The notes under the pieces: model-generated
The model's database searches: none
What the model was told of the DNA's origin: nothing
The model's input: only the letters and a program-made list of their open reading frames with translations
Shown: one piece after another, positions 20,653-34,515 of the stretch
Numbering within the stretch: position 1 is the stretch's first letter
Layout of the letters: every line of letters begins with the position of its first letter
Source: Methanobacteriota archaeon
Lineage (GTDB): Archaea; Halobacteriota; Methanomicrobia; Methanomicrobiales; Methanospirillaceae
Assembly: GCA_029547605.1 (NCBI GenBank)
Contig: JAKPPB010000003.1
Span: 1 to 36,211, forward strand
DNA: 36,211 nucleotides
Reading direction: 5' to 3'
Translations under genes and position numbers: made by a program

Positions 20653-22314
20653 TCACACCTCCGGCCCGTACACTCCCGACCCAACGAACCATTCGTCATC
20701 CACCGGCACCACGTAACAGAGCTTCAGGGCCTCGGACCCGGTATCAGGGTTCAGGTACACCACGTAGACGAACCCCCCGCCAGCGCGTGCCACTTCGATC
20801 TCCCAGTCGATGATCGCGACCCCGTAGTGGTCAAGGAATCCAAGGCGGCTGGTTCCGATCAGCTCAGGCTGGTGGGGAAGCGCGAGCGTCGTCCCGTTCA
20901 TCGCATACGCAAAGACGTAGTCTCCTCCGGGTGCCCACTTGCCTGAAAGGTCATTGAACGCAGCGAGGGCAACGCCCATTCCCTCCTTCCGGGCAAAGTC
21001 ACGGGCCGCATGCACCCTCTGCATGAGTGCGTCCTTCTCCTGCCGGCTGAAGGTTGCGTTCACATGGGAGAGATAGATCCCGGATCCAAGGAACCAGTCA
21101 TCGTCCACCGGCACCACTGAAGAGATCTTCAGTTCCTCGGCGAATCCTGCAGCGGGGTTGGGGTACACGTAGTACACGTGCCCGCCCCCGCGTGAGGCTG
21201 CCCCCACAAGCGCCCTGACGAAGGCAACGCCGTGTACGTCATGGACATCAAGGCGGTTCTGCCCGATGAGGCCCTGCTGGAAGGGCAGCGCAAATACCGT
21301 CCCGTTCATGTCGTACGCGAAAATATACAGGTCTCCGTCCACAAACCGGCCGACTGGATCATTGAACTCCCTGAGGGCAGCCTCTCTTCCCTCACTCGCG
21401 GCAAATGCAACAGCGGACCGCACGTACGAATCGAGGTCTTTCAGTTCTGCGAGGGAGGCATTCCTCGCGGAGGAAGTCGCCGCGCTGCGGGGCGGGATCT
21501 TTCCCTCCGTCAGCACCACCCGCCATGCTGCCCCGTCAATTCCGGCGGTCTCCCAGGAGGCCTCTTTTTCGATCTCCCTGTCCCACCCGCGGCCCCAGAA
21601 CCGGTAGGAGCCTGTTCCCGAGGGTTCCGATACCACCCTCCTGAAAAACTCCTGGAGTCCTGGTTCCTGGTAGACAGGATCAGAAAAGAGGTTCTTTCCT
21701 ATCTCCTCCTGCGTCGTGTCGTAGATGACCGTCCCGTCTGTCTGGGTCACCCAGATGTCATAGTCCGTCCCCTCCACCACGGGCCCAATGGCCCTCCCAA
21801 TGAGGGTCTCGGGGCGGTACGTCACGTCGGTATACCCAAGGTAGGTGCCGTTTGACGAGAATACCGGGGCACTCTGTGAGATCCCGGCAAACCCTTCCTC
21901 CATCATGAAGACTTCGCTTACCCGGGGCACCTTCATGGCAAGGGCTTCCTGGACCGGTCCCTGGTAATTCACGTCCCTCCCGACGATCTCGCGGTAATGC
22001 TCCGGGACCGCGGCGACAATGATTCCCTCAGGGGAGATCGTGACAGACGAGAGTGCCCATGGGAGCGCGTCAAGTTTCTCGCGGAGGACAGCTTCTGCCG
22101 AAGGGCCGACGAGCCCTGTCCGGGACAGCCGATCGGCACTTGCGAGGTTGAGTGCCCGCACCCCTGCGAGATCCGCATCGATGGCCTTTACGGCCCCCGT
22201 GAGCGTCACGCTGGCCGCGGATGCCTTTGGCTGTTCCTTTTCCGGGATAATGCACCCGCTGGCGAGAAGCGCGGCTCCCATGACAAGGAGAAATAAGAAG
22301 AAGCGTACTTTCAT
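20653..22314 (-). CDS. Lipoprotein composed of Cache sensor domains
   Basis: 553 residues. Signal peptide with lipobox L-L-A-S-G-C; the Cys at 21 would be lipidated and the protein anchored outside the membrane. Residues about 40-285 look like a double Cache domain (W-V-T-Q-T-D-G-T-V-I-Y-D-T segment). Two similar single-Cache-like repeats follow: about 290-425 with D-G-D-L-Y-I-F-A-Y-D-M-N-G-T, and about 430-553 with G-G-D-Y-V-F-A-Y-A-M-N-G-T. Each ends in V-V-P-V-D-D-x-W-F-x-G-S-G. Cache domains bind small ligands such as amino acids or organic acids. There is no transmembrane transmitter, HAMP, kinase or methyl-accepting part, so it probably acts as a ligand-binding accessory protein. Confidence 0.85.
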   Translation of the reverse strand: MKVRFFLFLLVMGAALLASGCIIPEKEQPKASAASVTLTGAVKAIDADLAGVRALNLASADRLSRTGLVGPSAEAVLREKLDALPWALSSVTISPEGIIVAAVPEHYREIVGRDVNYQGPVQEALAMKVPRVSEVFMMEEGFAGISQSAPVFSSNGTYLGYTDVTYRPETLIGRAIGPVVEGTDYDIWVTQTDGTVIYDTTQEEIGKNLFSDPVYQEPGLQEFFRRVVSEPSGTGSYRFWGRGWDREIEKEASWETAGIDGAAWRVVLTEGKIPPRSAATSSARNASLAELKDLDSYVRSAVAFAASEGREAALREFNDPVGRFVDGDLYIFAYDMNGTVFALPFQQGLIGQNRLDVHDVHGVAFVRALVGAASRGGGHVYYVYPNPAAGFAEELKISSVVPVDDDWFLGSGIYLSHVNATFSRQEKDALMQRVHAARDFARKEGMGVALAAFNDLSGKWAPGGDYVFAYAMNGTTLALPHQPELIGTSRLGFLDHYGVAIIDWEIEVARAGGGFVYVVYLNPDTGSEALKLCYVVPVDDEWFVGSGVYGPEV

Positions 22315-23415: not shown

Positions 23416-24636
23416 ATGGTCTCACTCGCCGAAATCCAGGCTGCCTCACTTCTCCTGGAGGGAAAGGTGATCCGCACCCCCCTCGTGTATTCCCCCACCT
23501 TCTCTGAGATGACCGGTGGCGAGGTGTACCTGAAGCTTGAGACCATGCAGAAGGCAGGGTCCTTCAAGGTCCGCGGCGCGGCCAACCGGATATTCGGGAA
23601 ACGGAGCGAGATCGGCAAACGCGGCGTAATCGCGGCGTCCGCCGGGAACCATGCCCAGGGTGTCGCCGTGGCCGCCTCGATGGCGGGTGTCGCGGCCACT
23701 ATCGTCATGCCCGAGTGGGTCTCGCTCGCCAAGCAGGAAGCCACGGTAGGATATGGTGCAAGGGTCATCCTCAGGGGCGGCAGCCTTGAGGAGAGCATCG
23801 CTCATGCCATGCAGGCGGCCCTCGACGAGGAAATGACCTTCATCCACCCTTACGACGACCCGCTGGTCATCGCCGGCCAGGGGACCATCGGGCTCGAGAT
23901 CCTCGAAGACCTTCCGAACGTCGATCTCGTGATCGTTCCCGTCGGGGGAGGCGGACTGATCTCAGGGATTGCGAGTGCGGTGAAGTCCGCCCGGCCGGGC
24001 ACGCGGGTGGTCGGCGTCCAGGCGGCAGCATGTCCCTCGGCGGCCGAGGCCCTCCGCCGGGGAGGCCCGGTCGAAGTCGGGGCCGGTCCTACCATCGCTG
24101 ACGGGATACGGGTGAAACGGACCGGCGACCATACGTATCCAGTCCTCCGGGACTGTGTCAGCAGCGTGGTGCTCGTGGACGAGGAGGCCATCACGAGCGC
24201 GATGCTCCAGCTCCTCGAGCGAAAGAAAGTCCTCTCCGAGGGGGCGGGTGCAGCGCCCCTTGCTGCACTCCTCTCTGGTGTGGTCCCTCTGGCACAGGGG
24301 GAGAAGGTGGCCCTCGTGATAAGCGGCGGGAACGTGGATACCTTCCTCCTGGAAAGGATCCTGAAAAAAGGTCTGTATTCAGGCGGGAGGATGGTGCAGC
24401 TCGCCGTCGTTGTCGAAGAGGGGGCCCATTCCCTCCCTGCGCTCCTGCAAATCCTCGCCCGTGCCGGCGGAGTCGTCAACCGTATTGATCAGGAACGGAG
24501 CGCCCCCGACCTCCCCGTGCACCAGATGCGGGTGATACTGGAACTTGAAGTGCGGGGTCAGGCTCATCGGGAAGCGTTGATTGCCGCGCTGCACGAGGCT
24601 GGCTTCGCTGCACGACCCTTCCCGGGGGGTTACTGA
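23416..24636 (+). CDS. ilvA: Threonine ammonia-lyase (threonine dehydratase)
   Basis: 406 residues, PLP-dependent deamination of threonine to 2-oxobutanoate (isoleucine pathway or threonine breakdown). K51 in G-S-F-K-V-R-G-A binds PLP, S-A-G-N-H-A-Q-G is the phosphate or substrate loop, and the glycine loop is V-G-G-G-G-L. A C-terminal ACT-like regulatory domain (about 330-406: M-V-Q-L-A-V-V-V-E-E) resembles the shorter, TdcB-like enzymes. The ATG at 23416 is chosen over 23365 because the family begins near S-L-A-E-I-Q. Its last 160 bp are overlapped on the opposite strand by the tail of the Clp1-like gene. Confidence 0.92.
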   Translation: MVSLAEIQAASLLLEGKVIRTPLVYSPTFSEMTGGEVYLKLETMQKAGSFKVRGAANRIFGKRSEIGKRGVIAASAGNHAQGVAVAASMAGVAATIVMPEWVSLAKQEATVGYGARVILRGGSLEESIAHAMQAALDEEMTFIHPYDDPLVIAGQGTIGLEILEDLPNVDLVIVPVGGGGLISGIASAVKSARPGTRVVGVQAAACPSAAEALRRGGPVEVGAGPTIADGIRVKRTGDHTYPVLRDCVSSVVLVDEEAITSAMLQLLERKKVLSEGAGAAPLAALLSGVVPLAQGEKVALVISGGNVDTFLLERILKKGLYSGGRMVQLAVVVEEGAHSLPALLQILARAGGVVNRIDQERSAPDLPVHQMRVILELEVRGQAHREALIAALHEAGFAARPFPGGY

Positions 24637-25492
24637 GATCTACCTGGAGGGACCCCACATGGACCGTGGCAACCCGGTGCGCATCGTGCGGTGGTGCGCG
24701 GAATGCCAGGGTGCCTGACACGAGGTCGAGCCTGTCCACAAGCCCGAGGGTGACCACCATCATCTCGGCATCGCAGAGGGCGATAAGCAGGTCTTTCCAT
24801 GACTCCTCCCTGAAGGACTCGGGCATCCTGCCGTGCACCCCGAGCCCCGAGAGGAACCTGGCGTGCGGGATGGCATTCGCGAAATACTCCGAGAATTTCT
24901 GGAAGCGGTAGAGGCGCCTCCAGTCGCGTTTCCGCTCCACGACCTGCGGGGGCGCGGTGCACTCGATGATCTGGATCCGGGGATGGCGGCGGAAGTTCAC
25001 CAGTATCCCCTCGAGTTCCGGCCCGCGTTCGAATCCCACCACCAGGTCGGGCTGGAGGAGGTCGATCATCCGGACATGGAACTCCTGTGCCGCCGGCTCC
25101 ACTACCCACCCAGGCGAGTCCACCACCAGGAACGACGCGCCCTCATCCCTCGCCCGCTCCTTGAGCCGGAGTGCCCCGACAAGCTCCTGGACCATGTGCC
25201 CGCTCGGGGTCACCGCGCCAACGAACCTGAGAAAGGTCGCCCGTGGGCAGTCGAACGAGTCCTGGTAGAGGGCCAGTCCCACGGTCGCCGGGGGACCAAG
25301 GGTGGACTGTCCGATGTCACAGTCAAGAAAGCCTGTGAGGGCCACATTGGCCAGCCGGGAAGTCAGCCAGCGGCAGAACGTGGTCTTTCCCCTGTCTGCG
25401 GCACCGACCACGTACACCATCCCCGATCCCCTGTCCCGGAGTGCGCGGAGCACCGCTTCCCACTCGGAGGGGATCACAATATCAGACGCCAC
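24476..25492 (-). CDS. Clp1-like polynucleotide 5'-kinase family P-loop protein
   Basis: 338 residues. Walker A is G-A-A-D-R-G-K-T (30-37), and D-C-D-I-G-Q-S-T-L-G-P-P and V-V-D-S-P-G-W-V follow as in Clp1/Grc3-type RNA kinases. Archaeal relatives phosphorylate 5'-OH ends of RNA or DNA. The recognisable domain ends about residue 287 (H-V-G-S-L-Q-V-D-L-S), precisely where the opposite-strand ilvA gene ends. The remaining about 51 residues are antisense to ilvA and rich in Pro, Arg and Ser. The original stop was probably lost, extending the protein. It is followed upstream by the RsbW-like gene on the same strand. Confidence 0.8.
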   Translation of the reverse strand: MASDIVIPSEWEAVLRALRDRGSGMVYVVGAADRGKTTFCRWLTSRLANVALTGFLDCDIGQSTLGPPATVGLALYQDSFDCPRATFLRFVGAVTPSGHMVQELVGALRLKERARDEGASFLVVDSPGWVVEPAAQEFHVRMIDLLQPDLVVGFERGPELEGILVNFRRHPRIQIIECTAPPQVVERKRDWRRLYRFQKFSEYFANAIPHARFLSGLGVHGRMPESFREESWKDLLIALCDAEMMVVTLGLVDRLDLVSGTLAFRAPPHDAHRVATVHVGSLQVDLSNPPGRVVQRSQPRAARQSTLPDEPDPALQVPVSPASGARGGRGRSVPDQYG

Positions 25493-25519: not shown

Positions 25520-25972
25520 TCATAAATGATCAGACTCACTCGCCGGCTCACCCGGCTTTCGGAATCTCGTCATGCAGAGGATATTCTTGCCCCCTGAATA
25601 CTCGTATGTGACCGTATCCATGAGGTTTCGGATGAGATGGACCCCGAGCCCTCCGATGGGCCGATCCTCCACCCCGCCACTGAGATCAGGGGGTTCGACT
25701 GCAAGGGGGTCGAAGGGGTGTCCGCTGTCGATGATACAGACTGTCGCGGAGGTGGGGGTCACGGTGCACTCCACCGTCACCTCACCCTCGCCGGGAGTAT
25801 AGGCATACCGGATGATGTTGGTGCAGGCCTCGTCAACGGCAAGATCCATCTCAAAGATTGTCTTCTCGGGGAAGCCATGCTCTCTAAGGAGACCGGTGAC
25901 CATGCTGGTCAGCGCCTCGAGGTGCCCGAGCGTCGCAGGGACGGTCAGCCTGCGGGTCACACCGCCTGTCAT
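25520..25972 (-). CDS. RsbW/SpoIIAB-like anti-sigma-type serine kinase (HATPase)
   Basis: 150 residues of the HATPase_c_2 family. The N-box is D-L-A-V-D-E-A-C-T-N-I-I-R-Y-A-Y (43-58), then I-D-S-G-H-P-F-D-P and the G-box G-G-L-G-V-H-L-I-R-N-L-M-D. In bacteria such kinases bind a sigma factor and phosphorylate a STAS antagonist. Here the 4-nt overlap with the PP2C phosphatase gene and the STAS gene just upstream complete the same regulatory circuit. Archaea have no sigma factors, so the kinase's other partner is unknown. Confidence 0.87.
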   Translation of the reverse strand: MTGGVTRRLTVPATLGHLEALTSMVTGLLREHGFPEKTIFEMDLAVDEACTNIIRYAYTPGEGEVTVECTVTPTSATVCIIDSGHPFDPLAVEPPDLSGGVEDRPIGGLGVHLIRNLMDTVTYEYSGGKNILCMTRFRKPGEPASESDHL

Positions 25973-27333
25973 GTTCCCACCTTCAGGACGAGCAGCGTCA
26001 TGTCGTCGTTCTGCGGCGCAGCCCCCGTATGGGCTGCCACTGCGTCCTGGATTGCGGCAAGCGCCTCGCCTGCGGTGCGATCGTGCAGCCCTTTCACCAG
26101 GTCCGCCAGCCGCTCGTCCCCGAACTGCTGCTGCGATGCGTCTTCCGCCTCGGTTACGCCGTCGGTATAGAGGACAAGCAGGTCACCAGGATAGAGCTTG
26201 ACAGATCGCTCCTCGTAGACCGCTCCTTCGTCAGCCCCAAGCGCAATCCCGGAGGCCGGAAGTTCGCTGAGGGATCCGTCCGCCCTTGCAAGCATCGGCG
26301 GGTTATGGCCGGCGTTTACGTAGGAAAGGGTTCTTTCCGCGGGTTCAAGGATACAGAAGAAGAGCGTCACGAACATCCCCGATCCGGATTCACGGCAGAT
26401 GAGGGCATTCGCATCGCTCACCGCATCGCGCGGCCGCTGGTGCCATGCGGCGCTTGCGCGCATCACCGTGGAAGAGAGGGCCATGAAAAGTGCGGCAGGA
26501 ACCCCCTTGTCCGAGACATCGGCGATCACGAGGCCAACCCTTCCCCCCGGAGAACCAAGCACGTCGTAGAAGTCCCCACCCACCTCGCGTGCAGGCCGAC
26601 TCTCCGCGGCAAGTGCATATCCAGGGAGTGTGGGGAGGGAAGGGGGAAGGAAGCTCTCCTGGATCTCCCTGGCAATCTGGAGCTCAGCGTTCTTCCGCTG
26701 CAGCTCGGCCTGGTAGCGGTCACGCTCCCTGCAGGTCCTTCTCTCGTTCTCGAGGTTGAGCGTGATGAACGCAAAGATGAACATGCCGGCCGCGTTTGCA
26801 GCAATCATAGGGAATGCCGCATCCGAGACGAGCTCGACTGCGTCGGGGAGGGGACGACTCAGGAGGAGGACGAGTCCCATGTGCATCCCCTCGATCAGGA
26901 CCGCACCCGAGACCGCGAGGAGGAGGCCAGGAAAACGCTTCCGGTTGGCAAGGTTGATGATGCCTGCAAGGAGGCCGGCAAGCACAGTCGCAAGCGAGCA
27001 TGAGACCGCGGTAAACCCACCCATGGTCATCCGGTACCCCGCCCCTATCAGACCCGCGCCAATTCCCGCGACCGGTCCTCCCACAAACCCGGCCACCATC
27101 GGGCCAAGGTCGCGGATGTTGAGGGGGGCGCCGAGGATATCGATGCCACTCTCGGAACCATAGATAGAGAGGATCCCAAAGATCAGGATAAGGATAGCCT
27201 GGTTCTTCCAGGAGAAGCCCCCCTCGAGCACCTCGGGATAGAAGCGGGTCCTCGTCACAAGGTAGGCGAAGACCACCACCACGCACATCATCTGAAAGAG
27301 GATGAGGAAATCGGTGACCACTTCGGGGAGCAT
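25969..27333 (-). CDS. Membrane-anchored PP2C/SpoIIE-type serine phosphatase with 5TM-LYT-like sensor
   Basis: 454 residues. Residues about 1-200 form several transmembrane helices with the N-I-R-D-L-G-P and G-P-V-A-G-I-G-A-G segments of 5TMR-LYT-type sensors. A coiled linker (about 205-235, E-R-D-R-Y-Q-A-E-L-Q-R-K-N-A-E-L-Q) leads to a SpoIIE/RsbU PP2C domain (about 240-454) with G-G-D-F-Y-D, I-A-D-V-S-D-K-G, N-A-G-H-N-P-P, Y-T-D-G-V-T-E and N-D-D-M-T, the metal-binding set. It would dephosphorylate the STAS protein (27373-27726) in response to a membrane signal. It is 40 nt downstream of the STAS gene and overlaps the kinase gene by 4 nt. Confidence 0.9.
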   Translation of the reverse strand: MLPEVVTDFLILFQMMCVVVVFAYLVTRTRFYPEVLEGGFSWKNQAILILIFGILSIYGSESGIDILGAPLNIRDLGPMVAGFVGGPVAGIGAGLIGAGYRMTMGGFTAVSCSLATVLAGLLAGIINLANRKRFPGLLLAVSGAVLIEGMHMGLVLLLSRPLPDAVELVSDAAFPMIAANAAGMFIFAFITLNLENERRTCRERDRYQAELQRKNAELQIAREIQESFLPPSLPTLPGYALAAESRPAREVGGDFYDVLGSPGGRVGLVIADVSDKGVPAALFMALSSTVMRASAAWHQRPRDAVSDANALICRESGSGMFVTLFFCILEPAERTLSYVNAGHNPPMLARADGSLSELPASGIALGADEGAVYEERSVKLYPGDLLVLYTDGVTEAEDASQQQFGDERLADLVKGLHDRTAGEALAAIQDAVAAHTGAAPQNDDMTLLVLKVGT

Positions 27334-27372
27334 GGTATCAGGCGGCAGTCAAGTGATAGGCGGAGAGCGCAG

Positions 27373-27726
27373 TCATCGTGCCGGGTCCGCCCCGAGCGCC
27401 TCGTCAAGGTTCCGGTAGATGGGAAAGAGGCGGTTGAACCCTGCAATATCAAAGACCTTCTGGATCTCAGGTGCGAGTGCGGTGAGCTTCAACATTCCTC
27501 CCGAGGATTTCAGCCTCTTCAACCCCGAGAGCAGCACCCGCAGGCCGGCACTGCTGATATACTCGAGGCCGGAGAGATCGACGACCAGCTGGCGATCTCC
27601 TCCATCAATAAGGCGGTTGATATGCGCCTCCGCGTCCGGGGAGGTGGTTGCATCCATGCGTCCTTTCAGAAACACCACGGGAATATCACCCCGGCGCTCT
27701 TCCGCAACCTGCAGGATTGTGCTCAT
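27373..27726 (-). CDS. STAS-domain anti-anti-sigma-type protein (RsbV/SpoIIAA-like)
   Basis: 117 residues. It starts S-T-I-L-Q-V-A-E-E and has G-R-M-D-A-T-T-S and the phosphorylation loop L-E-Y-I-S-S-A-G-L-R-V-L-L, where S58 or S59 is the likely target of the RsbW-like kinase. The ATG at 27726 has a GGAGAG stretch about 11 nt upstream; a longer frame from a TTG at 27834 is less family-like. A minus-strand TATA-like sequence near 27850 (CGAATATAACTG) probably drives the three-gene operon. First gene of the partner-switching set. Confidence 0.87.
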   Translation of the reverse strand: MSTILQVAEERRGDIPVVFLKGRMDATTSPDAEAHINRLIDGGDRQLVVDLSGLEYISSAGLRVLLSGLKRLKSSGGMLKLTALAPEIQKVFDIAGFNRLFPIYRNLDEALGADPAR

Positions 27727-28249
27727 TGAAGAATCTCTCTCTCCTTCATCCCATATGAGCGTAGCGAGAGGGGCGCTGCGGCAGAGGAGACAGCGCTGTT
27801 TCGATTGGAGAGAGGAGGGGCCCGGAGAGAGCAAATATCCTCAAATAACAGTTATATTCGAAATTAAAACTTAAATTTTGCGTATTTTTTGAAGCTGGGA
27901 AATATCCCCCGTGACGTATCTCAGCATCCTGATGTTTCAGAAATGGACCCAAAAAGAGGTAAGGGAAATGGTCCTGAAAGGAAAAACCTATCGGTCTTTT
28001 CATATAGCAATATATGGTTTATTGAATTTTCGGGCTGCAGGATCCGCTGCCAGAAAGTGTCCCAATACACCAGGGGATATTCATAATACGCACAATCACA
28101 CAAGAAAAAGGCTGGCTTGAGGGATCAACTCCCACACCCTCGGGACGAAAGGAAGTCTGCACGCCTACGCTTTGTCCGTTTCGCACTCCCGGAAAAAAAG
28201 ATCATCCCCTGCCAGAAACCGCTGGACCGTCACCTCCGGGAGAGTGGCC
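27727..28249. other. AT-rich intergenic region between the STAS gene and xerA
   Basis: About 520 bp without a supportable gene. It contains the probable STAS operon TATA box near 27850, AT-rich DNA at 27840-27890, and one copy of a 28-bp inverted-repeat-containing motif at 27997-28024. Open frames here are short and have no family features. Confidence 0.5.
27997..28024 (-). repeat. 28-bp motif with inverted arms, copy 1 (candidate Xer or operator site)
   Basis: On the minus strand it reads AATAAACCATAT-ATTGCT-ATATGAAAAG: arms CATAT/ATATG around a 6-bp centre. It matches 26 of 28 positions with a copy at 33857-33884 in the opposite orientation. It lies 226 bp from the 3' end of xerA. Length and arm-centre-arm layout resemble Xer dif sites, but the sequence is not a recognised dif consensus. 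A TATA/operator element is the alternative. Confidence 0.55.
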
Positions 28250-29212
28250 TTACCACTGCTCGCTCTCCGGTTCAGTTCTCTGCTCAGATTTCTTGTCGCT
28301 GTTTTTTCGCTCTGACAGGGGGAAAAATTCCTGGTACACTCTCTTTCGCTCTTCCAGGTCAGTATGCAGGTAGATCTCGGTCGTCTTGATCGAGGTGTGC
28401 CCCAGGTTCTCCTGCACCACCCGCAGGTTCTTTGATCTCCGGTAGAGCTCGCTTGCGTAACTGTGGCGGATCTTATGCGGGGTGATCCCTTCGGGGGCAT
28501 ATTTCCTGAATATATGCTGAACTGCCCTCGGAGAGATGTGATGGCCCTGCTGGCCGACAAAGAGCGGCCCCTCGATCCTCTTACCGATGAATGCATCCAT
28601 CTCTGCGAGGGTATCCGGGTCGACAAACACGATCCGTATCTTGCCCCCCTTTCCCCGCACCTTGATAGTCCCGTCCTCGAAGTCGATATCCTCGATGTTG
28701 ATCCCGCAGAGCTCGGAGACCCGGACGCCAGTCGCGTAGATGGCCCGCACGATCAGCCTGTCGCGGACATCGTCGATTGAATCGATCAGCCTGAGCACCT
28801 GGCTGTGCTTGAGGTACCGCAGTTCCTGACCCTTGATCTTTGGTCGTTCCACAGCAAGCATGGGGTTGGCGGAGACCGCCCCCTGGGAGTACAGGAACCG
28901 GTAAAAAGAACTCAAAGTGGAGATGATCCGGTGGAGGGTCTTCGGCTTATACGTCCGCATCGAGGTCACAAACGAGAGGTAATCGTCAAGGAGCACCGGT
29001 GGGACTTCGACGCTCGTCTCAACCCGGGCCTTTGAGAAGTCTTCCCAGTAGATCATCAGCTTCTGGGGGTCGATGTTTCGCCTGAGCCAGACATAGTATG
29101 CGAAGTGTTTGACCACCTGCTCGTAGCTCTGGATGGTACGGGGGGAATAATTGCGCATTCTCAGGTAGTGGCGGTAGCGGTTGAGCCATTCCGAGAAAAA
29201 TCCCCCCTGCAT
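28250..29212 (-). CDS. xerA: XerA-like tyrosine recombinase
   Basis: 320 residues. An N-terminal SAM-like core-binding domain (about 1-110: Y-S-P-R-T-I-Q-S-Y) is followed by a catalytic domain with all six residues: R164 (T-G-V-R-V-S-E-L), K188 (V-R-G-K-G-G-K), H246 and R249 (T-P-H-K-I-R-H-S), H272 (L-G-H-T-S-I-K-T-T) and nucleophile Y281 (E-I-Y-L-H). In archaea XerA resolves chromosome dimers at dif, and related enzymes move integrated elements. A charged tail (K-N-S-D-K-K-S-E-Q-R-T-E) extends beyond Y281. Its flank is unusually gene-poor and repeat-rich. Confidence 0.92.
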   Translation of the reverse strand: MQGGFFSEWLNRYRHYLRMRNYSPRTIQSYEQVVKHFAYYVWLRRNIDPQKLMIYWEDFSKARVETSVEVPPVLLDDYLSFVTSMRTYKPKTLHRIISTLSSFYRFLYSQGAVSANPMLAVERPKIKGQELRYLKHSQVLRLIDSIDDVRDRLIVRAIYATGVRVSELCGINIEDIDFEDGTIKVRGKGGKIRIVFVDPDTLAEMDAFIGKRIEGPLFVGQQGHHISPRAVQHIFRKYAPEGITPHKIRHSYASELYRRSKNLRVVQENLGHTSIKTTEIYLHTDLEERKRVYQEFFPLSERKNSDKKSEQRTEPESEQW

Positions 29213-29307
29213 GCTCTATTCTTTTTTTCCTCGAATTATAAACTTTTTGCGCAGAATACACATTTCACGACAAATAACGCTCGACCATGTCAGGGATGAA
29301 AAAAACA

Positions 29308-29488
29308 GACTCTTCGCTCTCTGGTATGGGCAGGATTGATGGACTGTATGGTTATATAGGAGCTATCCGCCCCTACACTCATATATGGAGTGCAAGGCTG
29401 TTGCCCCCTATAGGGCACCCAGGCAATGGTTCGACGACTCAATGGGTATGCAGAAAAAATCTCAATTCAGATCCTCACAAAAACCATC
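29308..29488 (+). repeat. Dispersed structured repeat, copy B
   Basis: Contains GACTCTTCGCTCTCTGGTAT, GGGCAGGATTGATGGACT, a TATA-like TTATATAGG, GGAGCTATCCGCCCC, the stem TTGCC/GGCAA around CCCTATAGGG, GACTCAATGGGTATGCAGA and CTCAATTCAGATCCTCACA. Same block order as copy A. The TTGCC/GGCAA stem occupies the place of GCCGCCG/CGGCGGC in copy A. Confidence 0.75.
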
Positions 29489-30173
29489 AGGGAGATTAAA
29501 ACAAGTGCCATGGAAGTTGGTTGCCCTTCCGAAGCATGAATGGCATCCATGTGGAAAGCACACGATATCGATCAAAGACGCACTTATAAATCTCCAATTT
29601 CCTGGGCTTTTATTCGCACGAGATTGGAAAATTTTTCTTTCGACAAGGGTTTCCCTCTATTTATTGAAATTGTGCCGAAAAAGCACGATTATTTATGTAT
29701 CTGAAATTCTGGAACCCTGCGATGGTTCCCGCACTTGCGAATATATGAATTCCTCCGCCCCTTCCTTTCGAAAAAAAAGGTGTGCAAGGGGAAATAGACG
29801 AGACAGGAAACCACACTTGGGCATCGGCTGTAATGGAATGCTCAATCAACATTGATGCACAAAATCCGTTTACTAAAGGTTCGGTTGCATCACCTACGGC
29901 AATATCAGTCGTGATTAATGTCTCCTGTTGCTCAACCGGTTGAGATCCTGAGTTTCTCTGCCTGAAAAGCAATGAATCGTTTTAAAACTCGCATCCACAC
30001 GCCATGTGACACACTGGAATAGCCTTTGGGATATAGCAATTCACCCTCCTTTGGGAAGGTGTTGTGAGCAGGCTAAGGAAAGAATATGATTCTGTCGATC
30101 ACGATGTGCCCAATTGGGTGAGGAAAAGGGGGAAGTTTCCCCGAAAGAGGCGGGAATGTGGGATCTTTTATGG

Positions 30174-30359
30174 CCCTTCGCAACCTGGTGTGGGGAGGAT
30201 TGGGTGAACCGGACACATTTTGTGGGGGCTATCCGGCCCTACACCCCCACCTGCGATGCATTCCGCCTCCCCCGAAGGACGCCCCGGCGGCGGGCTCAGT
30301 GACTCGATTGATATGCAGATAACAATTGATTCAGTCTTCCCACACAAAACAGCGAGGAG
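30174..30359 (+). repeat. Dispersed structured repeat, copy C (tandem with D)
   Basis: Blocks: CCCTTCGC, TGGTGTGGGGAGGATTGG, GGGGGCTATCCGGCCCTACA, stem CCGCC/GGCGG across 30262-30291, GTGACTCGATTGATATGCAG, GATTCAGTCTTCCCACAC and ACAGCGAGGAG. The last block leads straight into copy D, giving a period of about 186 bp. Confidence 0.7.
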
Positions 30360-30530
30360 ACTCTTTTTTTTCTATTGCGGGCAGGATTGACGGACTATAG
30401 TATAAAGGGGGATTATCCGGCCCCCACATTCGATGGCTACACCGCTGTTATTGAGAAGGCGCCCCTGCAGCGGTTGGATGACTGAATAGGTATGCAAAAG
30501 AATCCCCTCAATTTATCCCCCCACTTAAAA
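30358..30530 (+). repeat. Dispersed structured repeat, copy D
   Basis: Blocks: GACTCTTTTTT, GCGGGCAGGATTGACGGACT, TATA-like GTATAAAG, a GGGGG(ATTATCCGG)CCCCC hairpin, stem ACCGCTG/CAGCGGT (30440-30476), GACTGAATAGGTATGCA and CCCCTCAATTTATCC. A GGGG-rich segment (GGGGAGG) near 30530 may be its end. Confidence 0.75.
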
Positions 30531-31591
30531 GGGGAGGCAGAGGAAAAATTTTATTCAGTTTCTCATTCCCATTGTGCGAGAGTATGCGGGAAGTGACAGG
30601 AAGACCCACCTGGAATACCCCCTCAATGGAAATCAGTTCAGTCTCTCTCACTTATGACTTGTGCCATTGCGTTCAAATGCAGTCCGAGTGTTTATACAAA
30701 GATCATAGGTTTTCGCATCATTTTGGAATGAATTTCATGCCTTGCTTCCTATCTATACACTGAGGGAAGAGAGGAGAGAGGGAAGTTCCTGTATGCAATT
30801 CCAGATCACTCTCAAACACCAATAAATCCAAAGAAGTGTTATCGGGGCACTGAATCCATTCTCATGGACAAAACGGACAAACAGTTGGAAAAACCCTCGG
30901 TTTCCAGTGGTTCAAAGAGGAGTCTCCCCGGGCAATCCAGTGAGTGCCAAAAGGCCGGCAGGGACAAATCATTGGGAGGGAGGATCTCTCCAATTCGTAT
31001 CCTGTTCATCGTGTTCAACCCAAAAACTGGTTATGTAAGATCTCGTGGGTGTGTCCCGGTTTCCAATGATAGTGTGAGGTAACGCAAGTGATTGATAAAG
31101 TGTTTTTCAACCGAGGAGGAAAAAATCCTCCATTCTCTCCACCACATCCATTTTCCGAGATTCTACTCGCCTATTAAATGGAAGAGGGAAATGTGAACTG
31201 CGTGGAACACTGAATCGCGTTTCCGGGATGCCATACGGGTGTGGCCCATCATCGAGCGGGAAGTGTGCATTCAGGTCGCGTATGAGGAATTGTGGTCATC
31301 CGGGTAGATCTCCGCTCAACTTCATGCAGATTGGGCGTATCACCCCAACTGCTCTCTCCCTGCAATCATTTGAACGCAGGACCATTGGGTCAAAGCACAC
31401 TCTCTCAGTTCCCATTCGATGCAGCTCTCTCCAGGCAAGAAGGGGATTCCCACACATTATCTTACTCTGCACAAATCCTTGGGGTGAGAACGAAGGCACT
31501 CAGTTGCTTTTGCCACGCACTCATAGGCGAGATATTCACTTTCACCCTCCCCGGCAGAGGTTTTTCTAGGTGATCCCCTCCAGATAAGAAG

Positions 31592-31711
31592 TGTCTGTAT
31601 CAATGCCACCTTGAGGATACAGACATGGGCAGAAACCCCATGGAAAAGTAATCTGCCAAGAGAAACCTGGATTCACGGGGGATCCCGGTACCCCCTTTTT
31701 GCGGGATCCCC
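31592..31711. ncRNA. Candidate structured RNA: three successive perfect hairpins
   Basis: TGTCTGTATC (31592-31601) pairs with GATACAGACA (31616-31625). CATGGG (31624-31629) pairs with CCCATG (31637-31642). GGGGATCCCG (31678-31687) pairs with CGGGATCCCC (31702-31711). Inside the last hairpin, GGGGG (31677-31681) and CCCCC (31691-31695) can form an alternative short stem directly followed by TTTTT, like an intrinsic terminator. GATCCCCTCC occurs both at 31572-31581 and 31705-31714, so the GGGGATC arm could pair with either. No gene overlaps. No known RNA family was recognised; strand is unknown. Confidence 0.5.
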
Positions 31712-32152
31712 TCCTGTTTTCCCTCATGAAAAACTCTGCGCCAGATCCCGATTAATCGCACATAAAAACTTCTGATTCCGATTTTAGAGATAAATCGAAG
31801 ACTTTCACCTCCAATCGCGGATACTGTGCAAAAAATCCATACACCATATGATGCTATATCCTATCGTGGAGAGGGTGGACTGCCAGAGAGAAGGATTGCG
31901 CGATTGTTTTGAATGAAATCCATGAAATGAATTAAACTGGACGAACAGGCATGGACTTGCGAAGCCAGAAAGGAAAGACAATGCAATGCCAGGAATTCCT
32001 CGCAACGCCCTGCAAGGAATTGTTCATCGTTCCCTCATACGCCGAACCCAGATCCTCCAGGTTTCATCCAGTTACCTATTTAAAGGAAACACAAACCATA
32101 TCTACACAAAGCAGCCCTCCCCCCGGCTGGCACCGCATCCCAATGATAGCCC

Positions 32153-33277
32153 ATGATTACCGTTCTGTTCGTGGATGACGAGCCGGCCCTCCTGGATGTT
32201 TCGAGACTCTACCTTGAGAAGTCCGGAGATATCAAGGTCGACACCTGTTTCTCCGTTGAGCAGGCGATAGAATCACTCAAGGAGCGTTCGTATGACGTCA
32301 TCGTATCTGATTACGAGATGCCGGGGATAGATGGCATAGAGTTCCTGAAATTGTTACGAAACCTTGGCGACCGCACACCTTTCATCATCTTCACCGGCAG
32401 AGGACGTGAGCATGTTGTGATCGAGGCCTTGAACAGTGGCGCCGATTTCTATCTCCAGAAAGGAGGAGACCCCAAATCACAGTTTGCAGAACTCAGCCAC
32501 AAGATCAGACTCGCAGTAGAGCGCCAGAGGAACGAGAGGTCACTTCAAATCACGCGGCATTCGGTCGATAAGGCATCCATCCGGATCTTCTGGTTCGACA
32601 CCCGTGGAAGAATAATATACGCAAACGAAGCGTCCTGCAAGGCACTCGGATACACGCCTGAAGAACTCCTGCGTATGACAATCGGAGAGATCGATCCTTT
32701 CTTTACAAGGGACGAGTGGGACTTGTTCGTCCAACGGTTGCGTGCACACGGATCCATGCTCCTGCAGGCATTTCACATTCGAAGAGACCGGGATATGGCC
32801 GCAGTCGAGGTCTCGTTCACGATAAGAGATTTCCAGGAGCGGGAAATCATATTCGCGTACTCCTGGAGTGCGGGGGACTGGTCCGCAAATAAAATACGGG
32901 AAAAACAGGCTGAGATTCGCTGTCACCGGATTGCGGATGCCATGCCGTGCCTTTACTTTGAGGTTTCGACCGATGGAACACTCCGGTTCTGGAACGATAC
33001 TGCCTCGGCATTCACGGGATACAGGTATAAAGACCGGGCGAACCCAGGAGGAGTTACTTTTCTTGACCTGGTGCTGAAGGGCCAACAGGCGCATATTGCC
33101 GGGATCATCTCCAGGGTGGGTGAGACATGCCAGAGCGAGATCATCCAGGTCCCAATGGTCGGAACTGGCGGGATAACCCGGACTGTCCTCTTCCAGGCAC
33201 ATGGATACGAGGGGCAAGCCGGACGACATTTCGTGCAACTGCTGGAGATCTTCCCGAAGTCCCCCGGCAGCCCGTGA
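32153..33277 (+). CDS. Response-regulator receiver protein with two PAS domains
   Basis: 374 residues. A REC domain (1-125) has the acidic pocket D8-D9, phospho-acceptor D53 (V-S-D-Y-E-M-P-G), T81 and K103 (L-Q-K-G-G-D), all intact. PAS 1 is at about 135-250 (F-D-T-R-G-R-I-I-Y-A-N-E-A) and PAS 2 at about 260-370 (V-S-T-D-G-T-L-R-F-W-N-D-T-A). There is no histidine kinase, DNA-binding or other output domain. Such REC-PAS proteins are abundant in Methanomicrobiales and probably pass signals by protein contact. A TATA-like TATTTAAAG at about 32077 lies in front. It is isolated between gene-poor stretches, with no kinase gene in the window. Confidence 0.88.
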   Translation: MITVLFVDDEPALLDVSRLYLEKSGDIKVDTCFSVEQAIESLKERSYDVIVSDYEMPGIDGIEFLKLLRNLGDRTPFIIFTGRGREHVVIEALNSGADFYLQKGGDPKSQFAELSHKIRLAVERQRNERSLQITRHSVDKASIRIFWFDTRGRIIYANEASCKALGYTPEELLRMTIGEIDPFFTRDEWDLFVQRLRAHGSMLLQAFHIRRDRDMAAVEVSFTIRDFQEREIIFAYSWSAGDWSANKIREKQAEIRCHRIADAMPCLYFEVSTDGTLRFWNDTASAFTGYRYKDRANPGGVTFLDLVLKGQQAHIAGIISRVGETCQSEIIQVPMVGTGGITRTVLFQAHGYEGQAGRHFVQLLEIFPKSPGSP

Positions 33278-33593
33278 GGAAAAAGGTGGATGCGAAGCCT
33301 CCTGCAGGAAGGTTATTCACTCGGCACTATTCCCTATTCGTTCACTCTCCCACGAAGAGCAGGATTCCCTGGATTATTCCCCAGTGTCAGTAGAATAGAT
33401 GCCATAATGTGCGGAGGGAGACTTTACAGTCCCTACGATCTCACTGTAAGAATACTCTTCTCTTCACAACTCCACTGAAGATTATAGGATTAAGGAATTA
33501 CCTATCATATTCACATTAAGCACACGATACGGCTATTATCCCTGTATCTAAGGATTTGTGCCGAAAATCAACCCTGAAATTAAAAGAGAAATG

Positions 33594-33720
33594 GGCTCTT
33601 TGCTCTCTGGTATGGGGAGGATTCACGAACCATGTTCATTATAGGAGGGGGCTTTCTGCCCCTACGAATGGATACGATTCACTCTCACGCGCCGGGGCGT
33701 CCTGGGTGTCGATACTTCAA
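33594..33720 (+). repeat. Dispersed structured repeat, copy E (3' part degraded)
   Basis: Blocks: GGCTCTTTGCTCTCTGGTAT, GGGGAGGATT, TATA-like CATTATAGG, GGGGGCTTTCTGCCCCTACG and a shortened GC-rich stem (ACGCGCCGGGGCGT). The block GACTGAATAGGTATGCAG and the end seen in copies A-D are missing or unrecognisable. This is the most decayed copy, 225 bp before the DUF5806-like gene. Confidence 0.65.
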
Positions 33721-33856
33721 AACCGGCCCTCACTGCTTCTGTTCAATGTGTCTCTTTTATCCAGGTTCACATCCCGCTGGGATAATTGAATTTCCGGGCA
33801 TTCTCTCTCAATAGCGCTGATTTTCAGGGTCTTTTTGAGAGATTCCCCACGACTAT

Positions 33857-33884
33857 AATAAACTATATATTGCTATATGATAAG
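33857..33884 (+). repeat. 28-bp motif with inverted arms, copy 2
   Basis: Reads AATAAACTATAT-ATTGCT-ATATGATAAG. It differs from copy 1 (27997-28024, opposite strand) at two positions. It lies 62 bp before the DUF5806-like start, so the CTATATAT core could also be that gene's TATA box. Together the copies bracket xerA, four structured repeats and the REC-PAS gene. Confidence 0.55.
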
Positions 33885-33945
33885 AAATAGAGAGAATACA
33901 CGGGCGCAGCGTTGGAACGGGGCTCGTTTGCGCCGGGAGAACCCT

Positions 33946-34515
33946 ATGCGAACACAGTATGGCCAGGAGGATATCAACAAGTACCGGAAATTCAAGAAGG
34001 TGGATGGCGCGACCTACCGAAAAGTCAACCAGTTCCTGAGAAAGCGGACCTATGTCACTGCAAGGGAATGGGCCATTGCACGCCTCTGCACCGATTTCCG
34101 GACGCGGAGCGGCGCGGAGATGACCTTCATAGGGCAGCATTTACCCGAACTTGTCCCCTTCATGCAGGAATGTTATACTCCCCAGGCGGTGAACCAGGCC
34201 CGTAACTCGTTCAAGAAAAAGGTCTACAAGTCAGGGGCCACGTTCTTTTACGGGGCGATGTGCGGGTTCTTCACGAGCGAGGAACTTGACGACCTGCTCT
34301 TTGAGGCAAGCGAAGTTGCCCGGTTCCTCCTCGAGGTAGAGAAGACATCCCTTGATATCGACGAGGAGATCGAGATAGAGGACCGGATCACCGACGTGAT
34401 GAGAAGCGTCGGAGAGGCAGCTGCAAAGATCCTCCACGCAAGGATGCAGGAGGAAGAAAAGGAGAGCGAGGAGCCGGTATCCGCCGATATGCCCCCGGGC
34501 GGGGATATCGCATGA
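33946..34515 (+). CDS. Archaeal protein of unknown function, DUF5806-like
   Basis: 189 residues, soluble, mostly helical. The N-terminal half is basic (Y-R-K-F-K-K-V-D-G-A-T-Y-R-K-V-N-Q-F-L-R-K-R) with Y-V-T-A-R-E-W-A-I-A-R-L-C-T-D-F-R-T following. The C-terminal third is acidic and probably coiled (I-D-E-E-I-E-I-E-D-R-I and E-E-E-K-E-S-E-E). It resembles a conserved euryarchaeal family (DUF5806), recalled rather than searched. The ATG at 33946 has GGGAGA about 6 nt upstream; an in-frame ATG at 33877 lies inside the probable TATA box. Its stop overlaps the start of the MobB-like gene by 4 nt (ATGA), so the two are co-transcribed. Function unknown. Confidence 0.8.
   Translation: MRTQYGQEDINKYRKFKKVDGATYRKVNQFLRKRTYVTAREWAIARLCTDFRTRSGAEMTFIGQHLPELVPFMQECYTPQAVNQARNSFKKKVYKSGATFFYGAMCGFFTSEELDDLLFEASEVARFLLEVEKTSLDIDEEIEIEDRITDVMRSVGEAAAKILHARMQEEEKESEEPVSADMPPGGDIA

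Follow-up and report, generated by a model that had tools for sequence, protein, structure and literature searches.

The window analysed here, a stretch of 36,211 nt, is part of a 123-kb contig in a 2.26-Mb genome reported to be 100% complete. On its minus strand it carries an operon for a STAS protein, a membrane phosphatase and an RsbW-like serine kinase. An earlier note, made from the DNA letters and their translations, had placed these three genes at 25520–27726; all three are located there, and their domains are unambiguous. The features of the locus are the following, the last being a neighbour that we do not judge to be a member of the circuit:

27373..27726, minus strand: STAS anti-anti-sigma-like protein, predicted substrate of the switch (117 aa; PF01740, E 7.7e-21; TIGR00377 ant_ant_sig above cut-off)
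27550..27552, minus strand: codon of S59, the predicted phospho-acceptor, which aligns with SpoIIAA S58 (motif YISSAG against FMDSSG, aligned by inspection)
25969..27333, minus strand: membrane sensor PP2C phosphatase of the RsbU/SpoIIE type (454 aa; 5TM-5TMR_LYT and SpoIIE domains)
26761..27225, minus strand: 5TM-5TMR_LYT membrane sensor region, phosphatase residues 37–191 (PF07694, E 1.4e-39)
25978..26550, minus strand: SpoIIE/PP2C catalytic domain, phosphatase residues 262–452 (PF07228, E 2.1e-52)
25520..25972, minus strand: RsbW/SpoIIAB-like GHKL serine kinase (150 aa; PF13581, HATPase_c_2, E 6.8e-34)
24476..25492, minus strand: gene of the CLP1-like polynucleotide-kinase family (PF16575, CLP1_P, E 6.1e-32)

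The spacings given in the earlier note held for the 4-nt overlap between kinase start and phosphatase stop and for the 27-nt gap between the kinase and the Clp1-like gene on the same strand, whereas the gap between the STAS and phosphatase genes, put there at 40 nt, measures 39 nt. Operon spacing in Methanolinea relatives is equal to within 1 nt. Evolutionarily, dN/dS lies between 0.07 and 0.20 for the trio genes in all comparisons with an estimable dS (the kinase is saturated against its homologue at locus L056); the trio is under purifying selection and is not a chance set of open reading frames.

Two other parts of the window deserve a brief description. Just upstream of the operon, G+C falls from about 0.62 to 0.49–0.52 over 27750–34500, a stretch with few long open reading frames and with a tyrosine recombinase at 28250–29212, and this stretch is possibly an integrated element adjoining the switch operon. 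At 20653–22314 lies the gene of an apparent lipoprotein of 553 aa, with a HK/GC/chemotaxis-type sensor domain, two sCache_2 stretches and no output domain.

Residues, fold and class of the three proteins

Functionally, each protein can be compared with its bacterial class. Like RsbV and SpoIIAA, the small protein consists of a single STAS domain with a conserved phospho-serine in an SSxG loop, a loop that the earlier note had picked out; in an alignment of 76 STAS sequences S59 never varies, while conservation of S58 is 97%, and S59 is the predicted acceptor because of its alignment with SpoIIAA. The phosphatase has the SpoIIE-type PP2C domain with metal-binding aspartates that defines RsbU and SpoIIE, its metal-ligand motifs (GGD, AD, TDG and DD) being 99–100% conserved in 68 sequences, and the PF07694 match bears out the 5TM-LYT-type sensor previously read from the translation. 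In the kinase, the GHKL/HATPase_c_2 signature is complete, with N-box glutamate and asparagine, DxG and GGLG motifs, and E48 and N52 of the N-box, D82, G108 and G110 are invariant among 56 aligned kinase sequences. As judged from these alignments, the catalytic residues of all three proteins are intact.

Structurally, the AlphaFold model of the kinase (pLDDT 83.6) has SpoIIAB (1th8) and RsbW (6m37) as its best PDB matches, and ranks 1–18 of the fold search are occupied by SpoIIAB, RsbW, UsfX or other anti-sigma complexes; SiaB (6kko) follows at rank 37 (E 0.018), and histidine kinases also fall well below SpoIIAB and RsbW. The modelled fold is thus that of RsbW/SpoIIAB and not that of a histidine kinase, in agreement with the earlier description of the protein as RsbW-like. 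Scores of the full proteins are far under the RsbW, SpoIIAB and SpoIIE equivalog cut-offs, the kinase reaching 69.9 bits against a cut-off of 145 for the NCBIfam RsbW model and 28.2 against 135 for the SpoIIAB model.

Host, absence of sigma factor and taxonomic spread

Methanolinea sp. isolate QR_Bin.1 has a kinase of 95% identity to this one, and its gene order and operon spacing match as well; by these sequence comparisons the host is a Methanolinea-type archaeon of the Methanomicrobiales, as the earlier reading of an archaeal rather than a bacterial organism required. A Sigma70_r2 profile search of this genome returned no match, while 10 bacterial controls were positive. The earlier proposal of a complete partner-switching trio in an organism devoid of sigma factors is therefore upheld, with the trio intact and no detectable sigma-70, and so is its corollary that a sigma factor cannot be the client. 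Since the genome has no Sigma70_r2 match, we describe the kinase as working like RsbW and not as being an anti-sigma factor.

A SpoIIAA/AB/E-like trio was reported in 2009 in two Methanomicrobiales, M. labreanum and M. marisnigri (loci Mlab_1450-1452 and Memar_2467-2469), and was placed in this order only; its targets could not be determined, and sigma factors were absent (Anderson et al., PMC2686161). The paradox of anti-sigma machinery without a sigma factor is thus already known. In our literature searches on archaeal partner switching, PMC2686161 was alone in treating the trio (PMC5847659 deals with archaeal two-component systems), and no named target of the archaeal trio was found in the literature searched. 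The present circuit agrees with the 2009 report in its order, its three clustered components, the lack of a sigma factor and the open question of the target, whereas the spread to other families of the phylum and the candidate targets come from this analysis only. The circuit in Methanomicrobiales is of a published kind, and what is new is a short list of candidate clients drawn from co-occurrence.

Taxonomically, the kinase occurs in 85 of 150 sampled genomes of Methanomicrobiales, single-contig genomes included, and, phylum-wide, in 64 of 345 sampled genomes, other families beyond this order included; at two loci outside Methanomicrobiales (L171 and L184) its phosphatase and STAS neighbours are the same. 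Outside Archaea, the nearest kinases found are 43% identical and come from Clostridia, with others in Eubacterium and Synergistetes, which makes horizontal exchange at some time plausible. Such exchange is what could be said for regarding the operon as a relic or a contaminant, that is, as a misbinned bacterial operon or a decayed, functionless transfer. Against this, single-contig genomes from across the order also carry the trio, so it is not MAG contamination, and its genes are under purifying selection with invariant active sites; we regard this explanation as refuted by the conservation data and give it almost no credence.

Two fusions of RsbW-like domains were seen in passing. One, from a single genome of the family, joins such a domain to a GNAT acetyltransferase domain (L086:4646-6127), in a gene adjoining two paralogous genes that resemble AMP-ligase/reductase genes. 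In genus g24, the RsbW-like kinase makes up the C-terminal end of a protein of 804 aa that also has a Cthe_2159-like repeat region (L076:5360-7774), and this fusion gene is followed by a STAS gene and then by an opposite-strand PP2C gene with a different membrane region.

Candidate clients of the kinase

Within the genome that contains the window, the switch components extend beyond the operon. There are four SpoIIE phosphatases, whose sensors are 5TM-LYT, dCache-HAMP, HAMP with an unassigned N-terminal region, and three PAS domains, and one stand-alone HATPase_c_2 kinase matched over its full length; of nine other matches, those read resemble sensor histidine kinases. Four STAS proteins accompany them: the 117-aa protein of the window; MBL-STAS, a metallo-beta-lactamase-fold protein of 694 aa with a C-terminal STAS domain, at L099:3942-6026; STAS-TCAD9, of 786 aa; and STAS-XC, of 436 aa, at L101:5064-6374 on the minus strand of contig C33, whose C-terminal 310 residues (named XC here) match no family. 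The three larger proteins are encoded on contigs other than that of the switch operon. The phospho-serine motif of STAS-XC (the SSxG serines) is invariant in 18 sequences. Outside the STAS part, Pfam, NCBIfam and PADLOC give no match for XC, and the PDB no significant one; that it is an output domain we infer, since it has no detectable homologue of known function. The idea that XC might be a decayed form of a PP2C, kinase, STAS or MBL domain was rejected, all profile-profile comparisons being negative. A histidine-kinase core was suspected by eye at the C-terminus of the MBL protein, but a profile comparison with the kinases gave a probability of only 1.8%, and we make no such claim. In the STAS-TCAD9 protein (G000:C62:11374-12036; L100:6372-8732), TCAD9 corresponds to the Pfam "ternary complex associated domain 9", with which a weak APH-kinase match overlaps, and a link of the switch to ternary conflict-type systems via STAS-TCAD9 is possible.

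The co-occurrence analysis called for earlier was run over the same 150 Methanomicrobiales genomes, which were searched for the kinase, the phosphatase, STAS-XC, the MBL protein and Clp1. Kinase status was permuted within genera, a procedure that controls for relatedness, using 16 kinase-less genomes with a given genus that had been listed independently of Clp1, and Clp1 served as an internal control for genome incompleteness. The phosphatase is present in 72 genomes (68 full-length matches, four in the 5TM part only), all of them kinase-positive, and in 62 its distance from the kinase is under 6 kb. STAS-XC is present in 61 genomes, 60 of which have the kinase, and the copy in the lone exception (G108) is a pseudogene broken by frameshifts and stops; for the MBL protein the corresponding figures are 64 and 63. 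Both track the kinase within genera, with no occurrence among the 16 kinase-less genomes against 5.8 expected for STAS-XC and 7.0 for the MBL protein (P 2e-5 each). A genome of another order, 91% complete (G182), has STAS-XC and no kinase match, and one that is 81% complete (G142) has an MBL match but not the kinase.

Physical linkage was also frequent. Of the 60 genomes with both genes, 23 have STAS-XC no more than 6 kb from the kinase, and at several loci (L063, L064, L067 and L080) STAS-XC is directly downstream, either a few nucleotides away or slightly overlapping. The MBL protein lies within 20 kb of the kinase in 37 of 63 genomes, adjoining a small STAS gene in several; three Methanolinea genomes encode it as a fusion with a STAS domain, and elsewhere it is separate. 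In an archaeon outside the order (L171), a single STAS-XC-TCAD9 protein is encoded close to kinase, phosphatase and STAS genes. Near-obligate co-occurrence and frequent linkage with the kinase are thus shown for both STAS-XC and the MBL protein. Co-occurrence is not proof of contact, and the two families could serve a shared regulon.

A further candidate effector is an NCS2 nucleobase permease with an RsbW-related tail (hhalign 95%), found in 15 of the 150 genomes, all kinase-positive, and absent from the genome of the window. The tail is degenerate, having lost the N-box asparagine and the glycine-rich motif, and the fusion gene lies beside STAS and 5TM phosphatase genes in five of 10 loci checked.

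Among the 85 kinase-positive genomes, STAS-XC is missing from 25 and the MBL protein from 22, so neither is universal, and both are missing from 14, so clients vary. Some other client must be at work in those 14, which leaves room for a classical switch acting on transcription, in which the kinase would sequester TFB or another general transcription regulator until freed by the binding of unphosphorylated STAS. The SpoIIAB/RsbW fold of the kinase and the full classical set of stand-alone STAS protein, phosphatase and kinase fit such a switch. The genome has no sigma-70, however, and in the loci read, where most neighbours are unannotated, none of the genes identified next to the kinase encodes TFB or another transcription factor; we consider a transcriptional client of this kind unlikely.

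The earlier note had suggested a TFB, a second-messenger enzyme or the adjacent Clp1-like kinase as a possible client, and in the last case the circuit would control RNA 5'-end phosphorylation. The position of the gene, 27 nt downstream of the kinase on the same strand, is repeated in five Methanolinea genomes, and Clp1 is near the kinase in two other genera. Over the 150 genomes, though, Clp1 presence does not depend on the switch kinase by either co-occurrence or linkage: 18 of its 60 carriers are kinase-less, 43 of the 85 kinase-positive genomes are devoid of it, only seven of the 42 genomes with both genes have it less than 6 kb from the kinase, and in two kinase-bearing Methanolinea (G081 and G089) the two are unlinked. 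The within-genus association is nil, with six kinase-less carriers observed against 5.8 expected (P 0.86). Co-occurrence and fusion data therefore argue against this most obvious neighbour, whose role as client we hold to be very improbable. The Clp1-like gene also overlaps, by 161 nt at the 3' ends (24476–24636), a convergent PLP-dependent gene that is threonine-dehydratase-like with a C-terminal region resembling ACT; this overlap is kept in Methanolinea relatives (158–161 nt), with a dN/dS of 0.14–0.25 for the Clp1 tail.

Proposed mechanism and comparison with known partner switches

In Bacillus, a sigma factor is the output of this switch. We think it fairly probable that Methanomicrobiales have a conserved partner switch without sigma, in which effectors that bear or bind STAS domains take over that place. 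Mechanistically, the RsbW-like kinase would use ATP to phosphorylate S59 of the 117-aa STAS protein, and removal of the phosphate on signal would fall to the 5TM-LYT membrane phosphatase and the three other sensor-SpoIIE phosphatases. The kinase may also act on the STAS domains of the larger proteins STAS-XC, MBL-STAS and STAS-TCAD9, in which case the phosphorylation state of those domains would be the output; alternatively, the output may be the binding of STAS to degenerate RsbW-like tails such as those on the permeases of related genera. The fuller scheme, which we advance tentatively as somewhat less than an even prospect, is one of a single kinase and many sensor phosphatases, with modular effectors in sigma's place, namely STAS domains joined to XC as a new output domain, to TCAD9 and to a metallo-beta-lactamase-fold protein that would be a sensor or an enzyme, and, in other genera, transporters whose dead RsbW-like tails compete with the kinase for STAS.

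If true, such a one-kinase, many-phosphatase network would constitute post-translational, non-transcriptional partner switching in Archaea. The sigma-free anti-sigma paradox has stood in Methanomicrobiales since 2009, and the candidate list, with STAS-XC first, is testable with purified proteins; confirmation would show what partner switching regulates when it has no sigma output and would characterise part of the serine phosphorylation signalling of methanogens.

Non-sigma outputs are known from bacterial systems built of STAS, HATPase kinase and PP2C proteins, namely SiaABCD of Pseudomonas aeruginosa, BtrUVW of Bordetella and SypA/SypE of Vibrio (PMC8256260, PMC9239204). On this precedent, the small STAS protein, when unphosphorylated, could bind and activate an unlinked enzyme and be the sole client of the kinase, a possibility with which the STAS–MBL fusions of the three Methanolinea genomes would agree. 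The kinase is not SiaB-like, however, given the SpoIIAB/RsbW fold and the low rank of SiaB in the fold search. This alternative overlaps our favoured reading and differs from it only in placing all output on the stand-alone STAS protein; in that exclusive form we give it a low probability, and we continue to favour a switch with STAS-bearing or STAS-binding effectors. Compared with these three bacterial systems, the archaeal kinase has a fold more like that of RsbW/SpoIIAB than that of SiaB, and STAS-fused proteins, in place of a diguanylate cyclase or a secretion system, are the candidate outputs; none of the operon's neighbours examined in the window was found to be a diguanylate cyclase.

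A bacterial parallel to the archaeal permease and STAS-TCAD9 fusions is provided by two loci in public MAGs of gut Eubacterium and Fretibacterium (L051 and L052), which encode a PP2C-kinase with STAS and STAS-APH fusions; L051 also encodes a dicarboxylate symporter to which a degenerate RsbW-like domain is attached. They differ from the archaeal loci in being bacterial, in having phosphatase and kinase fused in one chain, and in that no STAS-XC was found there. With RsbU/RsbV/RsbW and SpoIIE/SpoIIAA/SpoIIAB of Bacillus, the archaeal trio shares its domain set, catalytic residues, predicted kinase fold and position of the acceptor serine, while differing from them in its sub-equivalog scores, in the 5TM-LYT membrane domain that is its sensor, and in operating in a genome without a sigma factor.
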